A stretch of DNA of 25,644 bases from a virus, in the IMG/VR virus record IMGVR_UViG_3300031629_000070, positions 1 to 25,644 of that record, one strand, 5' to 3'. The position numbers were made by a program, and so were the translations under genes. The notes below the pieces were generated by a model. That model made no database searches, had not been told where the DNA came from, and was given only the letters and a program-made list of their open reading frames with translations. Shown piece after piece: positions 3,262 through 14,319 of the stretch (within the stretch, counting starts at the first letter, position 1; each line of letters opens with the position of its first letter).

Positions 3262-4230
3262 TTAAGTTGAGCTGTAGCCAGCGGCTGCAGGGCCACTTCT
3301 AACTGTTCCAACACCAGTAGTATCACTAGCCACTACTCCAGTGTTAGAGACTAAGTTTGTCATTGATACCCTAGAGCCATCATAGCCATAGCCAAATATA
3401 GCTTTATCACCACCGTAGCCAGCAGCAGCAAGAACATATCTCCCCGTACCTACTCCTGTTGTATCGCTAGCTACTACTCCAGTGTTAGAGACTAAGTTTG
3501 TCATTGATACGTAGGAGGGCGTACTCCCATACCCAAATATAGCTTTATCACCACCATAGCCAGCGGCTGATGGAAATCCCCTAGCTGTACCAACTCCAGT
3601 TGTATCTGTAGAAACAACACCCGTGTTGGAGACTAAGTTTGTTATTGATACATAGGCGGAACCATTATAGCCATAGCCAAAGAGTGCTTTATTCCCTCCA
3701 TAGACAGCGGCTGCAGGGCCGCTTCTAGCCGTTCCAACACCCGTAGTATCTACAGAAACAACACCTGTGTTAGAAACAAGATTTGTAATTGATACCCTAG
3801 AGCCGTCATAACCATAACCAAAGATAGCTTTATCGCCTCCATATCCAGTGGCTGCTAGACTGTTCCTGGCGGTACCAACGCCAGTGGTATCAGTAGAAAC
3901 AACGCCAGTATTGGAGACTAAGTTTGTCATTGCTAAAAAGCCGCCACCAGTCCCATACCCAAACAGGGCCTTATCCCCGCCATATCCTGCGGCCGCTAGA
4001 TTTTGCCTTGCTGTACCTACTCCTGTTGTATCGCTAGCTACTACTCCCGTATTAGAGACTAAGTTTGTTAGTGATAGGGCGGCTAGGCCATTATGACCAT
4101 ACCCAAAGAGTGCTTTCTGAGTAGGCGTAAACGCTGTAAACACTTCAGTCCCGTTCAGGAAGGCATCGTCAAGAGTAACCCCATTGAGGACGACAGCATC
4201 ACAGACAACACCATTTAGCGTGAAAGGCAT
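3262..4230 (-). CDS. six-repeat propeller-like tail protein, candidate receptor binder
   Basis: This gene encodes 322 residues. A short N-terminus (1-38) has three LNG-containing motifs. It is followed by six repeats of 47-48 residues: 39-86, 87-133, 134-180, 181-228, 229-275 and 276-322. Each begins KA[LI]FGYG and contains TNLVSNTGVV, DTTGVGTAR and AAAGYGGD. The size and Gly/aromatic pattern fit a Kelch/RCC1-like beta-propeller blade, so six blades could close a ring. Variation is concentrated in two loops per repeat, after FGYG and after GVGTAR. The gene follows the fibre gene with a one-base TAATG overlap, which suggests a second distal-tail or adhesin protein. The fold and role are inference. 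Confidence 0.75.
   Translation of the reverse strand: MPFTLNGVVCDAVVLNGVTLDDAFLNGTEVFTAFTPTQKALFGYGHNGLAALSLTNLVSNTGVVASDTTGVGTARQNLAAAGYGGDKALFGYGTGGGFLAMTNLVSNTGVVSTDTTGVGTARNSLAATGYGGDKAIFGYGYDGSRVSITNLVSNTGVVSVDTTGVGTARSGPAAAVYGGNKALFGYGYNGSAYVSITNLVSNTGVVSTDTTGVGTARGFPSAAGYGGDKAIFGYGSTPSYVSMTNLVSNTGVVASDTTGVGTGRYVLAAAGYGGDKAIFGYGYDGSRVSMTNLVSNTGVVASDTTGVGTVRSGPAAAGYSST
3265..4116 (-). repeat. six tandem 141-144-bp coding repeats
   Basis: The six protein repeats of the propeller-like gene are nearly identical at the amino-acid level, but the DNA differs at many third codon positions. For example, TGVV is spelled several different ways. Repeats 3 and 6 share the same two variable loops (YDGSRVS and SGPAAA) and are more alike in DNA there, which suggests exchange or duplication of loop cassettes. 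Confidence 0.85.
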
Positions 4231-5588
4231 TATGCAACTGTCCCATCGTATGTCAGATACGCCGTTGTCCCGTTAAGCCGCGCCCTCATAAGGCCGTCAG
4301 TGGAAGTTCCTGCGCGAGGAAGGGTTGCATCTGTACCTGTACTGCTAGCAATCACGCGGGTAGCGTCTGTGTAGGTGAGATCGGTAGCAGGAGCACTGGT
4401 AATGTAACCTGAGTCATTCGTCCACTGACTGATAGCACCACTCTTATTAGTGAATGTGTCTGTTGAGCTAGGGGTTACTGTACCTGTAGTGGTTGAGTAA
4501 CCCGAGTCATTCGTCCATTGCGAAATAGCACCCGATTTGTTGGTAAAGGTATCTGTTGAGCTAGGCGTAACAGTACCTGTTGTTGTGGAGTAACCTGAAT
4601 CATTTGTCCACTGAGAAATTGCTCCAGTTTTGTTAGTAAATGCTGTGGCACTAGCAGCCGTAACATAGGTCGTTAAGTCAGGGGGCGTGTAAGTGAACAC
4701 ACCAGTGGTGTTGTCATAGCTTAGGTTGGCAGTACCAACTGCGGCTACAGATGCACTCAGGTCAGTAAGTGCAATACCGCTATCACCAGTCCAAGAAGCT
4801 AATGTAGCAGGAGTGACGGCTCGACCTGTGTCTGTCCCAGTATTAACCTCGGCTTGAGTCGCTAATTCAATAATACCCACTACTGTCTCAGAGCTAGTAG
4901 GTAAGCCTGTGTAGGTCGTAGCATTAAGGGTAGTGAAAGTACCCACTGCTGGAGTTGTACCGCCAATCAAAGCATCAACCGTACCTGCTTCAATGTCAGC
5001 AGTCGTCGCCACCAGTGAGGATATTGTGGATATACTCGCATCACTTACTACAATGGCGCTGGTAACATCCCATGTATTGGTAGACAGTTCATAGCGTAGA
5101 GTCTGCCCATCAGTACCAACAGGTAATCGACCAGCAGGGTTAGCAACTTGAATCTCCCATGCTTGATCTGTGGTTTGATCCCAGACCAAAGTATCACCGT
5201 CAGCAGTGCCATCAGGGACTGTACCTGAGCCACCTACAACAGCTACTGCATCCCAAGCCAGTGTGACTGAGTTATACAACTGTGCGCCTGAAGCGTTCCA
5301 GCGCATAATATCAGCCGTTAATACGGCAATTCGCAAATCACCGCCATCGAATCTATAGAATCCAGTGGTATTTTCGTTAACCCATGAGGCTCCTGGAAGT
5401 AAGTTCGTTCCATCAGCAAAACGGAAGGGCGCTAACATACCACCTCTACCGTTACGGTCTAATGAGTCAGACAAGGCTGTTGATACATCATTCAGCGTGT
5501 TGTTTGCCCATGTTGAAGAGACAATCTCTCCAGACTGAACTGGGTTTCCTGCTACTAAGGAATAATTTCCTGCACTATCGCGTGGGAT
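4230..5588 (-). CDS. tail fibre protein, 5' end displaced by an HNH element
   Basis: The intact protein would have 452 residues. The piece here starts at fibre codon 2 (PRDSAGNYSLVAGNPVQ), preceded by ATC, with AGGAGA at 5595-5600. Later residues include DSLDRNGRGGM, ATTADIEAGTVDALIGGTTP, VGIIELATQAEVNTGTDTGR and three 31-residue repeats of the NKSGAISQWTNDSGY type, all typical of phage tail fibres. Fibres bind the host surface receptor. The next ordinary alternative start is TTG at 5474, which has no ribosome binding site and would drop the conserved N-terminus. The native ATG lies 700 bases away at 6286-6288. As drawn, the gene begins at the non-standard ATC; ATT at 5589-5591 is another option. 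Whether a full-length fibre is made in this state is unclear. Confidence 0.75.
   Translation of the reverse strand: MPRDSAGNYSLVAGNPVQSGEIVSSTWANNTLNDVSTALSDSLDRNGRGGMLAPFRFADGTNLLPGASWVNENTTGFYRFDGGDLRIAVLTADIMRWNASGAQLYNSVTLAWDAVAVVGGSGTVPDGTADGDTLVWDQTTDQAWEIQVANPAGRLPVGTDGQTLRYELSTNTWDVTSAIVVSDASISTISSLVATTADIEAGTVDALIGGTTPAVGTFTTLNATTYTGLPTSSETVVGIIELATQAEVNTGTDTGRAVTPATLASWTGDSGIALTDLSASVAAVGTANLSYDNTTGVFTYTPPDLTTYVTAASATAFTNKTGAISQWTNDSGYSTTTGTVTPSSTDTFTNKSGAISQWTNDSGYSTTTGTVTPSSTDTFTNKSGAISQWTNDSGYITSAPATDLTYTDATRVIASSTGTDATLPRAGTSTDGLMRARLNGTTAYLTYDGTVA
4404..4640 (-). repeat. 31-residue tail fibre repeats
   Basis: Within the fibre gene the unit FTNKSGAISQWTNDSGY plus STTTGTVTPSSTDT occurs twice in full and a third time in part. 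The amino acids are almost identical between copies while the codons differ, as in the neighbouring propeller-like gene. This spacing is common in the shafts of trimeric phage fibres. Confidence 0.8.
5566..5585 (-). repeat. 20-bp direct repeat, left copy flanking the HNH element
   Basis: TTTCCTGCACTATCGCGTGG on the plus strand is identical to 6266-6285, exactly 700 bases apart. On the minus strand it encodes fibre residues 2-8 (PRDSAGN). The bases outside the repeats differ. Confidence 0.95.
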
Positions 5589-5655
5589 AATGTCTCTCCT
5601 GTTGAGACTCAGGGCAGATAATGTTAAACTGCCAGCTCATCTTATGGTGATTAAA

Positions 5656-6261
5656 ATGCTTAAAAAAGAATGCAAAGTTTATGGCATCTGGAATGGAATG
5701 AGAAGCCGCTGTAACAACCCAAGTAATATCGCCTACCTGAATTACGGTGGAAGAGGTATTACTGTATGCAATGAGTGGGTTAGTCTTTGGGTTTTTGAGG
5801 CCGATATGGGGCCGAGACCAGCAGGATATACGCTTGATCGAATTGACAATGACGGGCCATACAATGCGAGAAATTGTCGTTGGGCTACCAAAAAGGATCA
5901 ACAGCGAAACCAAAGACGGACTCGCTATGTTGTAATTAATGGGGCTAGGTACAAGGCTGTTGATCTTGCTGAAAAAATTGGTATAAAAACGGACACTCTT
6001 GTCATGCGTGTCAATAATGGCTGGAGTATGGAAAAGATTATGGATAGAAGCCCAAAAATAACGATTTCTGAGGAGCATAAAGCTGCTATTAAATCTGGGC
6101 AAGAGAGAGCAAAGAAGGCTAGAACACATTGCCCAAGTGGGCACGAGTTCACTGAGGTTAATACCCGTATTACACCCCAAGGATGGCGTGTATGTAGAAG
6201 TTGCCATAGAGCCAAAACAAAACGGCAATCTGAACGAAAGCGTTCTCGTAAAGACTGCTAA
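5656..6261 (+). CDS. HNH homing-type endonuclease
   Basis: This gene encodes 201 residues from ATG 5656, chosen because GGTGAT at 5647-5652 pairs with the 16S rRNA end at normal spacing. In-frame ATGs at 5590 and 5644 exist; the first would add 22 residues. Residues 8-85 (YGIWNGMRSRCNNPSN ... YGGRGITVCNEW ... GYTLDRIDNDGPYNARNCRW) are the conserved core of a phage HNH family. Residues 91-131 resemble the helix-turn-helix repeat that follows such nucleases (VDLAEKIGIKTDTLVMRVNN). A C-terminal CPSGHEF...CRSC set (159-183) is a probable zinc-binding finger. The product presumably cuts fibre alleles that lack the insertion. It is the only plus-strand gene inside the late block. Confidence 0.9.
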   Translation: MLKKECKVYGIWNGMRSRCNNPSNIAYLNYGGRGITVCNEWVSLWVFEADMGPRPAGYTLDRIDNDGPYNARNCRWATKKDQQRNQRRTRYVVINGARYKAVDLAEKIGIKTDTLVMRVNNGWSMEKIMDRSPKITISEEHKAAIKSGQERAKKARTHCPSGHEFTEVNTRITPQGWRVCRSCHRAKTKRQSERKRSRKDC

Positions 6262-6265
6262 TCTG

Positions 6266-6285
6266 TTTCCTGCACTATCGCGTGG
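6266..6285 (-). repeat. 20-bp direct repeat, right copy flanking the HNH element
   Basis: This second copy is identical to 5566-5585. It directly follows the native fibre ATG on the minus strand and encodes residues 2-8 of the fibre. Confidence 0.95.
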
Positions 6286-6288
6286 CAT
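6266..6288 (-). pseudogene. separated 5' end of the tail fibre gene (native start)
   Basis: ATG at 6286-6288 is preceded on the minus strand by AGGAGA at ideal spacing and lies 3 bases after the stop of the upstream gene, so it is the original fibre start. It reads MPRDSAGN and then enters the HNH element antisense. As the sequence stands, this frame continues for 237 codons and stops at 5575 inside the other repeat copy, out of frame with the fibre body. Confidence 0.75.
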
Positions 6289-6291
6289 TGC

Positions 6292-7623
6292 TTATTCTCC
6301 TATTAATATCCCTTCTGCTTCCAGCTCATCGTTAGTGCGAGAGGCAAGCACAAGGAGCATATTCGCTTCTTTTTTAGTAAGTGTCGTTAGCAGCGCAGAG
6401 TCGCCGCGCCTTAGTTTATTTATCCCTAAAGCCAGTCTTGACTTAATAGATGGCATATCCATCGCGCCAACAGCATAGCCAAGCGCCGCGCCTATAGTGG
6501 GACTGCCAACCACAGATCCCAGCAGACTGCCTAAACCACTCGTACCAAGTGCATGTAAGGAGACTATGTTTCTGTGTTGCATCGCAGGGACTCTCTGATT
6601 TAGACCTTTTTGCAATTCTAAGGCTGGCCCTATGTCTGCATTTATATCACCAATTTCAGGAATAACCGTTCCCAACTTTTCCCTTGTAGAGTCGGCAAGA
6701 ACCTTATTAATATCCTCCGCTATTGGGTCTGCGCTCATCCGATCACCGCGATTTGAATAATTAACCAGATCATCCCCCCTTCTGCGGAACTCAAGCGCCT
6801 CTCTCGGGGTTAGTGCGTCTATTTTTTCTTGGTCGGAGTAGTTAATTAGATCGTCTATCTTGCTGTCTACTGCGCGGCCATACGCAGGGCTGTCTGGGAG
6901 GAATCGGCCTTTACTTGTTTTTGAGGCCTCAAGATCGGATAGTATATCAAGTGGATCAATTGTAACCCCGCTATCTACTCCTGCATCCACAATATCGTCA
7001 ATCCGCTGCCCTTTTTCGGCAATATATTTTGAGAGCTTTTGTTGCCCTTTTTTGTTTGGGAGGATGTCATGCTCTAATGCAGCGGAAATTGCTCGTGGTT
7101 CATCTATGCTACGCCCGAACTTGGCCGCACTGCTATATAGCCTTTCTGGCAGCGATTTAGGTATGGTCTTTGCTGCAAGCGATAGCCCTTCCCCCACAAC
7201 AGTCAAAGGCTCCATCTTGCTTGCAAGGTTAAGAGCTTTTGATAATGCGGGGACTTTGGTAGTTAGCCCTGCCCCGCCACTTAATACCCCAGACAAGTCA
7301 CCAATAAAACCTACAGGGTCAGTGTTAATTGTATTTTTTATACTATCTGCACTGCCGTAGCGATCTTTCATTGCGGCCCATACTGTGTCGGCGGCTTCAC
7401 TTTCGTCAATGCCGTTGAAATCCATACCCATTTTATCGCCAACACCTTTAGCTAGATGCCATAAGCCTGCTGCCGTATCTATCGGGTTCATTACGGTTTG
7501 GACTATATCGCCAGCATACTGTGCTGCGCTAGGGCCAGCATTTTTTTTAATCTCCTGGAAGCTAAGATCAACCGACATCTTCGATTCAGCATCCCTAAGT
7601 ATACGTTTTTGAGCTTCGTTCAC
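6292..7623 (-). CDS. probable internal virion (ejection) protein
   Basis: This gene encodes 443 residues and starts at GTG, with AGGAG 8 bases upstream and 2 bases after the previous stop. The N-terminal 120 residues are alpha-helical, with VMNPIDTAAGLWHLAKGVGD and a Gly-rich segment near 115. The middle is charged. Near residues 355-390 a hydrophobic Gly/Ala stretch (LGSLLGSVVGSPTIGAALGY) could insert into a membrane. Large helical proteins with late hydrophobic segments, encoded between tail and fibre genes, are usually podovirus internal core proteins that leave the capsid with the DNA. No enzymatic motif is evident. The assignment rests on position and composition. Confidence 0.55.
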   Translation of the reverse strand: MNEAQKRILRDAESKMSVDLSFQEIKKNAGPSAAQYAGDIVQTVMNPIDTAAGLWHLAKGVGDKMGMDFNGIDESEAADTVWAAMKDRYGSADSIKNTINTDPVGFIGDLSGVLSGGAGLTTKVPALSKALNLASKMEPLTVVGEGLSLAAKTIPKSLPERLYSSAAKFGRSIDEPRAISAALEHDILPNKKGQQKLSKYIAEKGQRIDDIVDAGVDSGVTIDPLDILSDLEASKTSKGRFLPDSPAYGRAVDSKIDDLINYSDQEKIDALTPREALEFRRRGDDLVNYSNRGDRMSADPIAEDINKVLADSTREKLGTVIPEIGDINADIGPALELQKGLNQRVPAMQHRNIVSLHALGTSGLGSLLGSVVGSPTIGAALGYAVGAMDMPSIKSRLALGINKLRRGDSALLTTLTKKEANMLLVLASRTNDELEAEGILIGE

Positions 7624-9827: not shown

Positions 9828-11050
9828 TATCCTTCTCCTGCTTCTGCATATGATGCTAGGGTTTCTGCATATCCTACTGGCACAGAGGGGGCTAAATTGC
9901 CCTGCTTGCCGTACATGCCGCTAAATACTTTAGTAAGCCAATTTCTATTGGCCCCTGTTATTGGATCGTCGCCAGCACCTAACTTATTGATGAGCTTTTG
10001 TGGATCGCCAGCATTAGCCCAGTTAGTGTCTGTAAATAAACTATCTTCTGTTCCATCTTCCCTTTCAACTGGTGTTAGCCAATTGTTAAATCTTTTCTTA
10101 TCATCACCACTCCACTGCTCCCACATACTAGCTTTTCTTAGTACATCAGCATTAGTCATATCTGTATCGAAGCCTTCATTAAGACCCCAAACACGATTAT
10201 CTTCAGGTGTTCCACTGCTTATTACAGTTTCTCCAAGACCTGTACCGTTATTAGCCCACGACCAGTCGGTAGGTGTAGCCTCAAAGGGGTTATCTATAGC
10301 ATCTTGACGGCGATCTTGTGCTGCCCTCTCGCGGCTTTGATAGCCTTGCTCATCACGTAGTTGATTTACAAACTGCTGCTGATAGAACTCTTCATTCCCA
10401 CCTTCAACATTAGGCATTCCCCACGGAGAATCCATTCCAGGTTGGTATCTCTCAAAGGCTTGATAGTCTTGATCGTATCCACCCCACGCATTAGCTCCTT
10501 GAGGCTTAGGTGCAAAAGCATCCCAGTCCCAAGAGGTATCTTTCTGCCCTAACGTACCATGCCACGGTCTAATATTTACACCTGATGATGACTGGGGTTG
10601 GTTGTTACCTGAATCTGGAGTAAGTGGATCACTTGATGCACTTGGTGGCCCTCCTAGCGACAACCCATCATTATCATCCTCAGCAAGGGGTATAAATGCG
10701 CTAAAATCACCGTCTGGTGCACCTCCCAGACTTAATCCACCAAGATCTCCACTAGGTACGTAGGGATTGATACCCTCCTGCATCATTTCATTAGTATTAT
10801 CGTAATACCAGTTTTCAGGTCGCTTACCGTATTGGTAATTACCATTGGTATCCGTGTACTGTTTGTTAGCATCTGCCTTAGCAAACGCAGCGGCCTGACG
10901 CGCTTCTGCCTCAGATCTACCCGCAGCAATCGAGGCTTGATAGGCTTTAGAGGCTGGTTGGTCTTGATAAAATTGACCTTCACCCGCGCCCCCAGCACCA
11001 TAATATTCACGGCCTGCTTGCTGGATGTCTTCTTCGGTCATGTTTCCCAT
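9827..11050 (-). CDS. hypothetical structural protein
   Basis: This gene encodes 407 residues if started at ATG 11050 (MGNMTEEDIQQAGREYYG). That ATG forms a TAATG overlap with the preceding gene and has AGGAAG upstream. An earlier ATG at 11086 would add 12 residues but overlap the neighbour by 37 bases and lacks well-placed pairing. The protein is acidic, rich in Gly, Asn, Asp, Gln and Trp, and looks largely disordered over residues 60-200, with LGGLSLGGAPDG and DGLSLGGPPSAS repeating a SLGG motif. The C-terminal 100 residues are more globular (VFSGMYGKQGNLAPSVPVGY). No family is recognised. Its place among the virion genes suggests a minor structural protein. Confidence 0.55.
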   Translation of the reverse strand: MGNMTEEDIQQAGREYYGAGGAGEGQFYQDQPASKAYQASIAAGRSEAEARQAAAFAKADANKQYTDTNGNYQYGKRPENWYYDNTNEMMQEGINPYVPSGDLGGLSLGGAPDGDFSAFIPLAEDDNDGLSLGGPPSASSDPLTPDSGNNQPQSSSGVNIRPWHGTLGQKDTSWDWDAFAPKPQGANAWGGYDQDYQAFERYQPGMDSPWGMPNVEGGNEEFYQQQFVNQLRDEQGYQSRERAAQDRRQDAIDNPFEATPTDWSWANNGTGLGETVISSGTPEDNRVWGLNEGFDTDMTNADVLRKASMWEQWSGDDKKRFNNWLTPVEREDGTEDSLFTDTNWANAGDPQKLINKLGAGDDPITGANRNWLTKVFSGMYGKQGNLAPSVPVGYAETLASYAEAGEG

Positions 11051-11484
11051 TATGCTGCTTCCTGTTGTTGTTCTGGGGTCAGCCATCGGCTAGTTTCTTT
11101 CTCCATGACAAGTACCACGGAGTCTACCCCTGTCTTGAATGCGTTGGGTATTCTGGCAACTTCTTTGAATCCCATGTGGATGTCGAGTTTGAGAGCTTTC
11201 TTGTTGTTAGCTGGCACCACGCCAAAGATACGATTTCGGCCACATATGATAAATAAGTGGCGAGCAACTTCATGGAAAAAGCCAGCGCGAATAACAAAAG
11301 GATTAGTAATAGAAAAGTGTACGCAGCAAGCATCGACAGTAAAGCTGTCAGCAATACAAACTGCTTGGACGCCACGTTCGTCAAAGGCAACAATACCAAT
11401 ACTATCTTCGCACTGTATGACACTTGTCTTCCCCTTAACCCATTCCCACTCATGTTGTTCAGTAAGAGATTTAAACTGGATCAT
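11050..11484 (-). CDS. GNAT-like N-acetyltransferase
   Basis: This gene encodes 144 residues. The ATG overlaps the previous stop (ATGA) and follows GGAGG at 6 bases. The C-terminal half has FGVVPANNKKALKLDIHMGF (87-106) and TGVDSVVLVMEKE (118-130), the pattern of GNAT acetyltransferases, where A-x-N-x-x-A and the G-F turn shape the acetyl-CoA site. A clear R/Q-x-x-G-x-G/A pyrophosphate loop is not visible, so the domain may be divergent or substrate-specialised. Small GNAT genes in virion operons are known from other phages. The target could be a virion or host protein. Location inside the tail gene series suggests modification of a structural protein, which is inference. Confidence 0.65.
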   Translation of the reverse strand: MIQFKSLTEQHEWEWVKGKTSVIQCEDSIGIVAFDERGVQAVCIADSFTVDACCVHFSITNPFVIRAGFFHEVARHLFIICGRNRIFGVVPANNKKALKLDIHMGFKEVARIPNAFKTGVDSVVLVMEKETSRWLTPEQQQEAA

Positions 11485-13544
11485 AGATAACCTCCCGTCT
11501 GGAATAAGCAGTCCCAGCCCACAATATTAATGCGGGTATTGGCGTTGCCATTCATCGCTACAGCAAAAGTTCTTCCCATACCTAGTGTTCCAGCAGGAAA
11601 TGACTCACCTTCCGCACTAGAGTCCCACAGACTTGTATTCCAGACTGCTGAATCCCATCCATCGTCCCCTGTCACTGATACAACAACAGGAGGTGTGACA
11701 GTTTCTTCAATAGAATAGTCGTATATAGCTCTTACACTGAGTGATATATCGCCAGCGAGTATACCTATCGTTCGCACAAAGCCCACACGATTGAAGTTAG
11801 AGTGTCCTGCGGGTGCCTGAAAGGACGTTAATGATCTAAACCCTATAGCAGAGCCTGTGCCCCTCTCAAGCCTTACTGAGACACTGTAGAATGTGCCTAC
11901 AAAATCTACATCTCCAACCAGTGAAAGTGTGGTTTCAGCCGCTACAGCGACAAATGTCTCCGTATAGGAGCTTGAACCTGTTGAGCTAACTGTTATATCA
12001 GTTGTTCCAGCCTGCATCTTATGACTACCAAGAATACTGTCTTTTACACGGTAAGATACAGTGTAAGTCTCGCCAATAACTAGCGGGAATAAAGCATCTG
12101 TCGTGTACTTAGTTTCAGCAACTTGTGTTCCATCACAATCATACTCAAGTGAGACTGTCGAAGTCCAGCCAACCCCCACAACAGGGTTAACATCTGTCCA
12201 GTGATTGTCTTTATTGATCTCGGTTCCATCCAATACCCCGTCATTGATGTAAACAACACCGTCTGGCCCCGCCATAAAGTAATCACCAACCCATGAGTCA
12301 GCGCCAAATATTGGCACGCCTTCCCAAAATCCCCATGCTGCTGTTTGAAGATTCTGTGTGTACTGGAGATAAGGCGTTTGTGCTGGCTTTGGCGTTACAA
12401 TCTGGAGGAATCCATCGCCTGGATGAACTGTTAGCTGCCACGCGGGGGAACTTTTACCTGTTTCAACATCGGCGCGAAGGAATCTATTAATCTTGCGAGA
12501 AGGTGTTTGGCCAAATATTGGATTACCACGCAGTAAATCGTTAAGTGAGGTAACCCCAAAGGTAGAAAGTACATACAGGTCAGGGCCGTAATCAGTAACA
12601 ATGCGCCTAGATTTGGGAACTTCACCGATAAACCATGTTCCGCGAGTAGACCACGGGCCTAGATTGCTCCCATTAGGGGTAATCTCTGGGTCTTCACCTT
12701 GATAGACAATGACATCGCCGCCTTGACCAACTGCGACCAGCATATCGTCTACACCATCGCCGCCATCTACCGTCCAATTCCATAATCCTACTAATGTACC
12801 GCCATGAGGCATCTTGGATCCAAAGACAAACTTCTTTAGCTCTCCAGTAATAGAGGCAATAGGCAAATACCAAGCGTCATCTTCATCTTCAAGAATCACC
12901 CAGATACGCTGCTTAAAGACCATTACAAAGGCAATATCATCGACAGGGAAAGCGGTAGTCACGCCAGCAAGATCATAGTGCCAGTCTGTCGCTGCGGTTC
13001 CAGAAGGAGGTCGTGACCATAGGCTTGTCGCCTCTTCATACTGCCACAAACCGTTTAGACCATCAGCATAGAGCAAGTAGTGACCGCGCAGGCCAGCTCC
13101 TGCTGCATCTCCTGTAAATTCAGTCCATACACCATACCCAGCGGGGCTGTCAGTCTGAGAGAAGACGACTTCTTGAACAGGCTCAATCGTGTTAAATAAT
13201 GTTGTGTTCCAGATACCCTCAGCAGTAACAGCGAACAGGCGGTTATTAGCATCGTCTTGGATGTTTGATTCAAAAGGTATGATTGTGTGTACGTCTGAGC
13301 TTGCGGCTCTTGGAGGCGTTTCTACGCACCCTGTGGCCCACTCTCTGTATCCCTTCCTCAATCTCATGCCATATTCAGACGGCATTAGGTTGTAAGAGTA
13401 GATACAGTCCTCTGGAGGCATCATCATTAATGAGTCAACAGAGTTAATCCCGCCAACACTGGCAGGAAATGTATAGGGCTGTACAGTTGGCTGACTTAGC
13501 TGTCTACCGTACCTACCTAATGTCTTCTGGCGGGTATATGACAT
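11481..13544 (-). CDS. tail/DNA stabilisation protein with inserted carbohydrate-binding-like domain
   Basis: This gene encodes 687 residues from ATG 13544, which lies one base after the upstream stop. An ATG at 13580 would add 12 residues but overlap that gene. The N-terminal region (FPASVGGINSVDSLMMMPPE and NLMPSEYGMRLRKGYREW) is characteristic of a large podovirus tail-hub or packaged-DNA stabilisation protein. Repeated beta-rich segments (RLFAVTAEGIWNTT, LYVLSTFGVTSL, VVYINDGVLDG) suggest a propeller-like body. Residues about 468-560 (LVIGETYTVSYRVKDS ... TETFVAVAAETTLSLVGDVD ... GTFYSVSVRLE) look like a carbohydrate-binding-module beta-sandwich inserted before the C-terminus. The following adaptor and Ala/Gly-rich neighbours fit a connector-tail role. 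Confidence 0.75.
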   Translation of the reverse strand: MSYTRQKTLGRYGRQLSQPTVQPYTFPASVGGINSVDSLMMMPPEDCIYSYNLMPSEYGMRLRKGYREWATGCVETPPRAASSDVHTIIPFESNIQDDANNRLFAVTAEGIWNTTLFNTIEPVQEVVFSQTDSPAGYGVWTEFTGDAAGAGLRGHYLLYADGLNGLWQYEEATSLWSRPPSGTAATDWHYDLAGVTTAFPVDDIAFVMVFKQRIWVILEDEDDAWYLPIASITGELKKFVFGSKMPHGGTLVGLWNWTVDGGDGVDDMLVAVGQGGDVIVYQGEDPEITPNGSNLGPWSTRGTWFIGEVPKSRRIVTDYGPDLYVLSTFGVTSLNDLLRGNPIFGQTPSRKINRFLRADVETGKSSPAWQLTVHPGDGFLQIVTPKPAQTPYLQYTQNLQTAAWGFWEGVPIFGADSWVGDYFMAGPDGVVYINDGVLDGTEINKDNHWTDVNPVVGVGWTSTVSLEYDCDGTQVAETKYTTDALFPLVIGETYTVSYRVKDSILGSHKMQAGTTDITVSSTGSSSYTETFVAVAAETTLSLVGDVDFVGTFYSVSVRLERGTGSAIGFRSLTSFQAPAGHSNFNRVGFVRTIGILAGDISLSVRAIYDYSIEETVTPPVVVSVTGDDGWDSAVWNTSLWDSSAEGESFPAGTLGMGRTFAVAMNGNANTRINIVGWDCLFQTGGYL

Positions 13545-13545
13545 A

Positions 13546-14319
13546 TCAGAACCATTCCCACGGTTTAGCCATCTTCTCAAGATACCGACCAGACTCAGAT
13601 ACTAGGCTTCCAACTGGCCCTCCAATTTTATCTCCAATCTTATTTATATCTTGACCAGCTGTTGCTCCAGTTAGTAGATCAATAGCATATTCGCCGTCAT
13701 CTTCGGCTCTTCTTCCCTTGTCTCTAGCTTGTCTTTCCTTGAGTACAACTGCAGCGGCCAGTGCAGCCCAAGGCCCAGCAGCAGCCAATGCTCCTCCTCC
13801 AGCGGCAGCTCCCCCTCCAGCAGCGGCACCTCCAGCAGCACTACCTCCTATAGCAGCACCTCCAGCAGCACCACCAGCAGCGGCAGTACCACCAGCAGCA
13901 GCGCTACCTACAGCAGCGCCCCCACCAGTAGCAGCAGCGCCTCCACCAGCAGCGCCACTTGCAAGAGATGCAGGAACTTGTGCGGCTTGAGCGGCACTTT
14001 GAGCCATAGTTGCTGTTTCGGCGGCTGTTAATGGGCCTCCAGCAGAGCCAGCAGCAGCGGCAGATGATCCACCTTGGCGCATAAACTGACTTGGGTTAAT
14101 TCCACCACCACCTCCGCCACCTTGTTGCTGTTGTTGTGGCATTTGGGGGTCTTCTCTCCTTTGCCGCTTTGGAGCATTTACTCTTTGTTGTTGAGGTGCT
14201 TGCCCATACGGATTCTCCATAGAGCCGTAATCAACACGCATCTCCTTAACTTGGGACATCTGCCGCATTAGAGCCTGCTTCTCTTCAGTTGAGAGTTGTG
14301 CGAACTCCTCTTCAGTCAT
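13546..14319 (-). CDS. Ala/Gly-rich low-complexity structural protein
   Basis: This gene encodes 257 residues starting MTEEEFAQLSTEEKQALMRQ. The ATG overlaps the previous stop (ATGA). A helical, charged N-terminus gives way to Gln-rich and seven-Gly runs (61-73), then a low-complexity block of alternating Ala and Gly (about 119-182). This block leads into an Ala-rich hydrophobic helix (GPWAALAAAVVLKERQARD, 182-200), and the C-terminus is globular (DLLTGATAGQDINKIGDKIG). The composition could allow a flexible or membrane-penetrating element. Its position between adaptor and tail protein suggests a virion component delivered at infection. No homologous family is recognised. Confidence 0.6.
   Translation of the reverse strand: MTEEEFAQLSTEEKQALMRQMSQVKEMRVDYGSMENPYGQAPQQQRVNAPKRQRREDPQMPQQQQQGGGGGGGINPSQFMRQGGSSAAAAGSAGGPLTAAETATMAQSAAQAAQVPASLASGAAGGGAAATGGGAAVGSAAAGGTAAAGGAAGGAAIGGSAAGGAAAGGGAAAGGGALAAAGPWAALAAAVVLKERQARDKGRRAEDDGEYAIDLLTGATAGQDINKIGDKIGGPVGSLVSESGRYLEKMAKPWEWF
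13774..13965 (-). repeat. GCN/GGN low-complexity coding repeat
   Basis: This stretch encodes the Ala/Gly block of the protein above and is built from short runs of Ala and Gly codons. The plus strand reads as repeats of AGCAGC and CTCC-type words. It is imperfect and not a simple triplet expansion. It creates long antisense open frames that are not genes. Confidence 0.8.

Follow-up and report, generated by a model that had tools for sequence, protein, structure and literature searches.

The tail fibre gene in the 25,644-nucleotide stretch of viral DNA analysed here (the window) is interrupted at its start by an HNH endonuclease gene, and sequence comparisons indicate that the insertion is probably a free-standing homing endonuclease element that is adapted to the opening codons of phage fibre genes, carries a recoded replacement 5′ end and lets the fibre re-start by translational coupling. 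An exact 20-bp direct repeat (TTTCCTGCACTATCGCGTGG, positions 5566-5585 and 6266-6285, 700 bp apart) flanks the antisense HNH gene at the fibre start (Table 1). Read on the minus strand (CCACGCGATAGTGCAGGAAA), the repeat is exactly fibre codons 2-8 without the ATG, and an exact repeat of 20 bases is expected by chance about 3e-4 times in 25.6 kb. Removal of 700 bases joins the ATG at 6286-6288 in frame to the fibre body, giving 452 aa. The repeat, this in-frame joining, the AGGAGA ahead of the native ATG and the opposite strand of the HNH gene had been described in an earlier sequence-only reading of this DNA, and all of them were recovered as described, the repeat as an exact match at both places. 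The stop codon of the upstream gene (6292-6294, minus strand) lies just 3′ of the native AGGAGA.

Table 1. Features of the interrupted fibre gene in the window, and read-through frames in six elements.
Feature	Position or length	Strand	Basis or remark
HNH endonuclease gene, 201 aa	5656..6261	+	PHROG 3377, family alignment
Promoter-like site for HNH, TTGAGA-17-TAAACT, TG before it	5602..5630	+	Consensus match alone
Native Shine-Dalgarno AGGAGA	6296..6301	-	Sequence; inside end of upstream gene
Left-behind native fibre start, ATG + codons 2-8 (MPRDSAGN)	6266..6288	-	33-bp identity to L005 fibre start
Element-borne Shine-Dalgarno AGGAGAG for re-started fibre	5594..5600	-	Sequence
Probable re-start codons ATT (5589-5591) / ATC (5586-5588) replacing ATG	5586..5591	-	ATT likewise in four relatives
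Inner 20-bp repeat copy, codons 2-8 of re-started fibre	5566..5585	-	Sequence
Short imported (co-converted) tract, putative	5544..5588	-	8/46 bases differ from L005
Tail fibre gene re-started at ATT/ATC	4230..5591	-	452 aa from ATC, 453 from ATT
Frame from native ATG through HNH antisense, 237 codons	5575..6288	-	TAG (5575-5577) overlaps fibre re-start
Read-through frame, window	237 codons		Stop +14 nt from re-start triplet
Read-through frame, L003	225 codons		Stop -1 nt from re-start triplet
Read-through frame, L208-1	307 codons		Stop +11 nt from re-start triplet
Read-through frame, L208-2	64 codons		Stop -1 nt from re-start triplet
Read-through frame, L245	217 codons		Stop -5 nt from re-start triplet
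Read-through frame, L248	219 codons		Stop +8 nt from re-start triplet

We compared the window with a related viral contig, L005, in which this fibre gene runs without interruption. The L005 gene encodes 450 aa, of which the first 119 are identical to those of the window, and the DNA of the two agrees at 97% over 929 bp; the L005 record holds no HNH gene of the window type. Hence, the insertion in the window is real, and the intact relative that the sequence-only reading had proposed to look for exists. Over 33 bp including AATAAGCAATG, the left-behind start matches the fibre start of L005 exactly, so that the left copy is the native one. The inner copy differs from L005 at 8 of its first 46 bases, compared to 15 of the next 854 (1.8%, P ~2e-6), and the changes in this tract are all silent except for the start codon (AAC TAC AGT to AAT TAT TCC, GGG AAT to GGA AAC); over the first 300 codons of the two fibres, 20 codons differ, 19 of them silently. 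This local excess of differences indicates that the inner start came in together with the element. The window and L005 represent an occupied and an empty allele of one site in related genomes, the pattern by which homing endonucleases are recognised. As the gene directly upstream of the fibre is unlike between the two, L005 is a relative and not an isogenic empty-site control. This upstream gene (window 6292-7623, minus strand; L005:2265-4997) is unrelated in length and sequence, the flanking DNA is 91-97% identical, and a gene exchange boundary coincides with the site of the HNH insertion. No relatives of the upstream gene of the window were found in the viral contigs searched, in which the 20-mer occurred outside the window in L005 only, and there was no close DNA relative of the window among 50,697 phage records.

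The best start of the HNH gene is the ATG at 5656, picked from the family alignment and an upstream GGTGA, with the stop at 6259-6261. The protein consists of an HNH core, an HTH-like middle and a C-terminal Cys/His (zinc-ribbon-like) domain, and it matches the PHROG 3377 "HNH endonuclease" profile (E 3.4e-47, residues 6-197 of 206), with no Pfam-A match at 0.001. Its AlphaFold model is of fair local quality (pLDDT 82.8, pTM 0.51). Foldseek returned nothing for this model at E <= 0.001 and no close solved structure, a second fold comparison gave none at Z >= 5 (HNH nickase 4h9d at Z 2.4 only), and a search of solved structures by sequence gave no meaningful match; in the absence of a convincing match, the fold is not to be called new. 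Promoter-like sites numbered three against 2.1 expected in shuffles, which is weak evidence for the one ahead of the HNH gene. Flanking direct repeats are not a general trait of HNH genes, being absent at the other HNH loci checked.

Related HNH genes are present at fibre starts in at least seven further, distantly related lineages (L003, L208, L244, L245, L248, L249 and L251), so that the set comprises nine interrupted fibre genes in eight lineages including the window, two of them (L208-1 and L208-2) in L208. The members were found by HNH or fibre searches. By protein search, the nearest HNH relative belongs to L003, a Rhodomicrobium sp. R_RK_3 prophage (also L089); L208 was reached by a search with the L003 fibre start; and a scan for nothing but an HNH C-terminal motif gave L244 (near copy L242), L245, L248, L249 and L251, all at a fibre start, as well as L243, L246, L247 and L250, which are without this HNH type. 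L236 carries an HNH gene of the fibre-start clade, cut short by the end of its stored stretch. The fibre-start HNH genes form one clade (support 99/96), apart from other HNH genes. They share a common layout, in which the native ATG with 0-8 fibre codons is followed by the HNH gene in either orientation, a second Shine-Dalgarno and the re-started fibre, whose frame is intact in 9/9 cases (253-533 aa). The left-behind starts are MPRDSAGN, MPRDGS, MPRND, MPRDGSGS, MPRAS or a bare ATG; five elements have a peptide-level duplicate of the fibre start, three a bare ATG, and L249 has no left-behind ATG. In L003, with an antisense HNH gene, ATG CCG AGA GAC GGA is left behind and the re-start lies at GGGAGGCTGAC TTG CCC CGA GAC GGA. 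L208-1 has an antisense HNH gene in front, and in L208-2 a shortened sense HNH gene is fused to a left-behind MPRN and followed by GGGAGGCTGAC ATT CCA CGC. An internal deletion has reduced this gene (L208:3816-4012) to 64 codons, with MPRNDPDKPLYASWSSMRA running directly into RTHC..., and it has the appearance of a decayed element, in which the gene-end replacement remains without the nuclease core. Given the intact gene of L005 and the recurrence of this anatomy elsewhere, including a prophage of an isolate, an assembly artefact, which the sequence-only reading had named as refuting it, is very unlikely. Annotated phages gave weaker HNH relatives only; in Myxococcus Mx9 and Sulfitobacter phages, proteins of the fibre N-terminal family carry the annotation tail fibre. 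Among 397 order, 385 class and 398 phylum genomes of the Rhodomicrobium host, there were no members beyond the host genome itself.

We then examined how the interrupted fibres could be started. At the position of the native ATG, the inner copy in the window has ATC, preceded by ATT; the only other near-cognate start before an in-frame stop is a CTG eight codons upstream of ATT/ATC, and RNA folding at the re-start is ordinary (hairpin z -1.3). The re-start triplets of the nine interrupted fibres are ATT (four), ATT-ATC (the window), TTG (one, L003), GTG (one, the own GTG of L249) and ATG (two, including the own ATG of L251). By comparison, 93 uninterrupted relatives, counted where starts could be aligned and leaving out nine with an N-terminal leader, have 90 ATG, two TTG, one ACG and no ATT (Fisher 2e-7 for the non-ATG excess). 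In L244, the HNH stop lies in the fibre frame 9 nt before the ATT, so that there is no other usual start; in L245 and L248 (10 codons upstream) and in L208-2 (18 codons upstream), an in-frame ATG is available, so that ATT need not be the start there. With an adjacent ATT and with ATT in relatives, a non-ATG start of the fibre in the window, where the ATC is known from one assembled record, is credible, if not certain. Gene callers would be expected to shorten such fibres by about 38 residues (to TTG 5474 here). The uninterrupted fibre relative at L225:3001 has, as the sole candidate start after an in-frame stop, an ACG behind AGGAGG, which is possibly a further non-ATG fibre start. The window fibre itself matches the PHROG 910 tail collar fibre weakly (E 2.7e-6). 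The gene after it (3262-4230, minus strand) is built of tandem repeats that are nearly identical (ALFGYG...TNLVSNTGVVSTDTTGVGTAR), several of them carrying exact DNA repeats of 16-30 bp, and is a candidate for a beta-propeller-like tail or fibre tip, with no family match.

An alternative is that an ordinary free-standing HNH homing gene arrived by illegitimate recombination in or beside the fibre start, leaving the repeat as a passive target duplication and the fibre damaged or poorly expressed. This would fit with ATC being a very poor start codon, with the many places in which HNH genes of the wider family are found, and with the window being one sequenced genome. However, the same anatomy recurs in eight phage lineages with HNH genes of a single clade, no fibre frame is broken, and ATT recurs with a Shine-Dalgarno ahead, which makes a chance landing unlikely.

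In the elements that allow a comparison, the left-behind and inner fibre starts specify identical residues in different codons, with 2/4 codons differing in L003, 2/3 in L208-2, 4/6 in L244 and 2/4 in L248 (67-83% nucleotide identity in these four), and 1/7 in the window. The typical change is at arginine, between the CGN and AGR boxes. The inner copies hence look like an imported, effectively recoded gene end. Decayed extra fibre starts (PRYGNG, PRDGSN and MPRNARG) lie upstream of the re-start at L003:3850-3960, L208:2960-3003 and L249:7225-7300, as if the element retained the starts of earlier host fibres. Signs of a relic of an older fibre start, some 26 nt ahead of the inner one, were suggestive in L003, L208-1 and L249 (P 0.013-0.023) and L248 (P 0.087), with nothing similar elsewhere; as its fixed spacing is partly forced by the GGA of the Shine-Dalgarno, which matches a conserved Gly codon, it was not used as evidence.

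The exactness of the 20-bp repeat, and the ATG and 452 aa that excision would give back, had suggested in the sequence-only reading a reversible switch, by which recombination between the repeats would remove or restore the element and toggle the full-length receptor-binding protein. Such a switch would need conserved repeats and is not supported, since elsewhere in the family the peptide has been kept while the copies have diverged in DNA and are no longer long exact repeats; moreover, the inner copy has a ribosome site of its own and the fibre frames are intact. A deletion between the repeats would also lose the HNH gene and so would not be reversible without homing from another phage. We therefore regard the switch as very improbable; repeat-mediated excision in the window phage is possible and would be plain loss of the element. 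What stands of the earlier interpretation is a homing-type HNH gene in a fibre gene, with duplicated codons, an intact relative and an unusual target.

In six elements, the reading frame that begins at the native ATG stays open across the entire insert and ends between -5 and +14 nt from the re-start (Table 1). Five of the six frames run antisense to the HNH gene, and there the antisense stops number 0 against 9.7 expected when synonymous codons are resampled from the usage of each phage (0 against 4.6 in the window, P 0.005). When all seven antisense elements are taken without selection, five are stop-free (P 0.0034), and 0/19 comparison HNH genes of similar GC are stop-free over their length; in the GC-rich members, an open antisense frame comes cheaply (P 0.18-0.45 each). 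Stops do occur in two antisense elements, L251, where the fibre starts at an ATG of its own, and L249, which lacks a left-behind ATG and uses its own GTG, so that coupling is not universal, and the sense-orientated L244 has many antisense stops, as expected if its antisense strand is unread; the contrast between elements that need an open frame and those that do not was chosen after seeing the data. The simplest reading of the frame would be termination-reinitiation at the re-start, together with shielding of the operon message from Rho. Elsewhere in the window, long open frames antisense to structural genes (10832-11530 and 13718-14031, plus strand) are probably composition effects. Intron-like splicing of the RNA, or bypassing by the ribosome with the repeats as take-off and landing sites, as T4 gene 60 bypassing near a homing gene might suggest, could also join the native ATG to the fibre body, yet is the least probable reading, since the DNA of the left and inner copies has not been conserved within the family, each inner start has a second Shine-Dalgarno, and the frame is open up to the re-start.

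In summary, we favour a homing element with a replacement gene end, for which we propose the following course. The HNH enzyme would cut within roughly codons 1 to 9 of an unoccupied fibre start, and the element would then be copied into the break by recombination repair. The anatomy shows that the native ATG and up to eight codons remain upstream, cut off from the gene, and that the far side of the element supplies a Shine-Dalgarno, a start triplet and the same N-terminal peptide in different codons; as the element supplies this substitute 5′ end, the fibre gene would survive. The codon differences may protect the carrier of the element from cleavage by its own enzyme. To judge from the anatomy and the stop statistics, ribosomes from the native ATG would read through the element, mostly antisense to the HNH gene, and stop at the re-start, where the fibre would be made by termination-reinitiation from a weak start triplet, the read-through keeping the operon mRNA covered by ribosomes. 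A wider proposal, which we put forward as plausible though short of probable, is that a natural home-and-rescue family drives through the receptor-binding-protein genes of phages, with selection keeping the HNH antisense strand free of stops for ribosome run-through and an AUU re-start. If so, one strand of a homing gene would code for the enzyme while the other acted as a conduit for translating ribosomes. The proposed homing element with its replacement gene end would explain how a homing gene can occupy an indispensable structural gene; recoded start regions, AUU-initiated tail fibres and coding-strand constraint from translation of the opposite strand are predicted.

In fungal mitochondria, it is established that a homing endonuclease can replace the 3′ end of a gene (atp6 of Allomyces macrogynus, atp9 of Rhizopus oryzae, and atp6, atp9, cox2 and nad3 of Glomus); the original end persists beside the element, and the duplicates differ far more in DNA than in protein (PMC3630166). 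The phage element likewise combines a free-standing endonuclease near one end of an essential gene with a replacement end beside it and a native end left behind, and its two gene-end copies share protein sequence and differ in DNA. The fungal mobile ORFs, however, are mitochondrial, use LAGLIDADG or GIY-YIG enzymes and exchange the 3′ end (C terminus), whereas the element of tailed phages has an HNH enzyme, mostly antisense, exchanges the 5′ end (start codon and N terminus) and involves a translational re-start. With its N-terminal end and HNH enzyme, it would work like the fungal mobile ORFs without being a member of them. T4-like phages have free-standing HNH genes (mob), co-conversion and a split nrdA, in which Aeh1 MobE leaves "genes in pieces", a structural gene that keeps its function, as here, but as two polypeptides (PMC2988022). 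The phage element shares with the mob genes an HNH nuclease with a separate, presumed DNA-binding C-terminal region and, as proposed, copying into cut alleles with co-conversion of the flanks. The mob targets are genes of nucleotide metabolism and those of the phage element tail fibre starts, and to our knowledge mob genes carry no replacement gene end. Tail fibres go unmentioned in a survey of nuclease genes that lie at exchange boundaries in phages (PMC10448857), and our literature search, which covered few subscription journals, found no phage homing gene that replaces the start of a gene. Hence, a homing element with a replacement 5′ gene end appears to be new for phages, as a variant of the fungal 3′-end replacement. 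Engineered home-and-rescue drives (e.g. HomeR, PMC7968924) also home into an essential gene with a recoded rescue of the disrupted part; they are synthetic, CRISPR-based and made in insects, so that the likeness is one of function without relatedness, and the phage element, if our reading is true, would be a natural counterpart of these drives, on a gene that sets the host range of phages.
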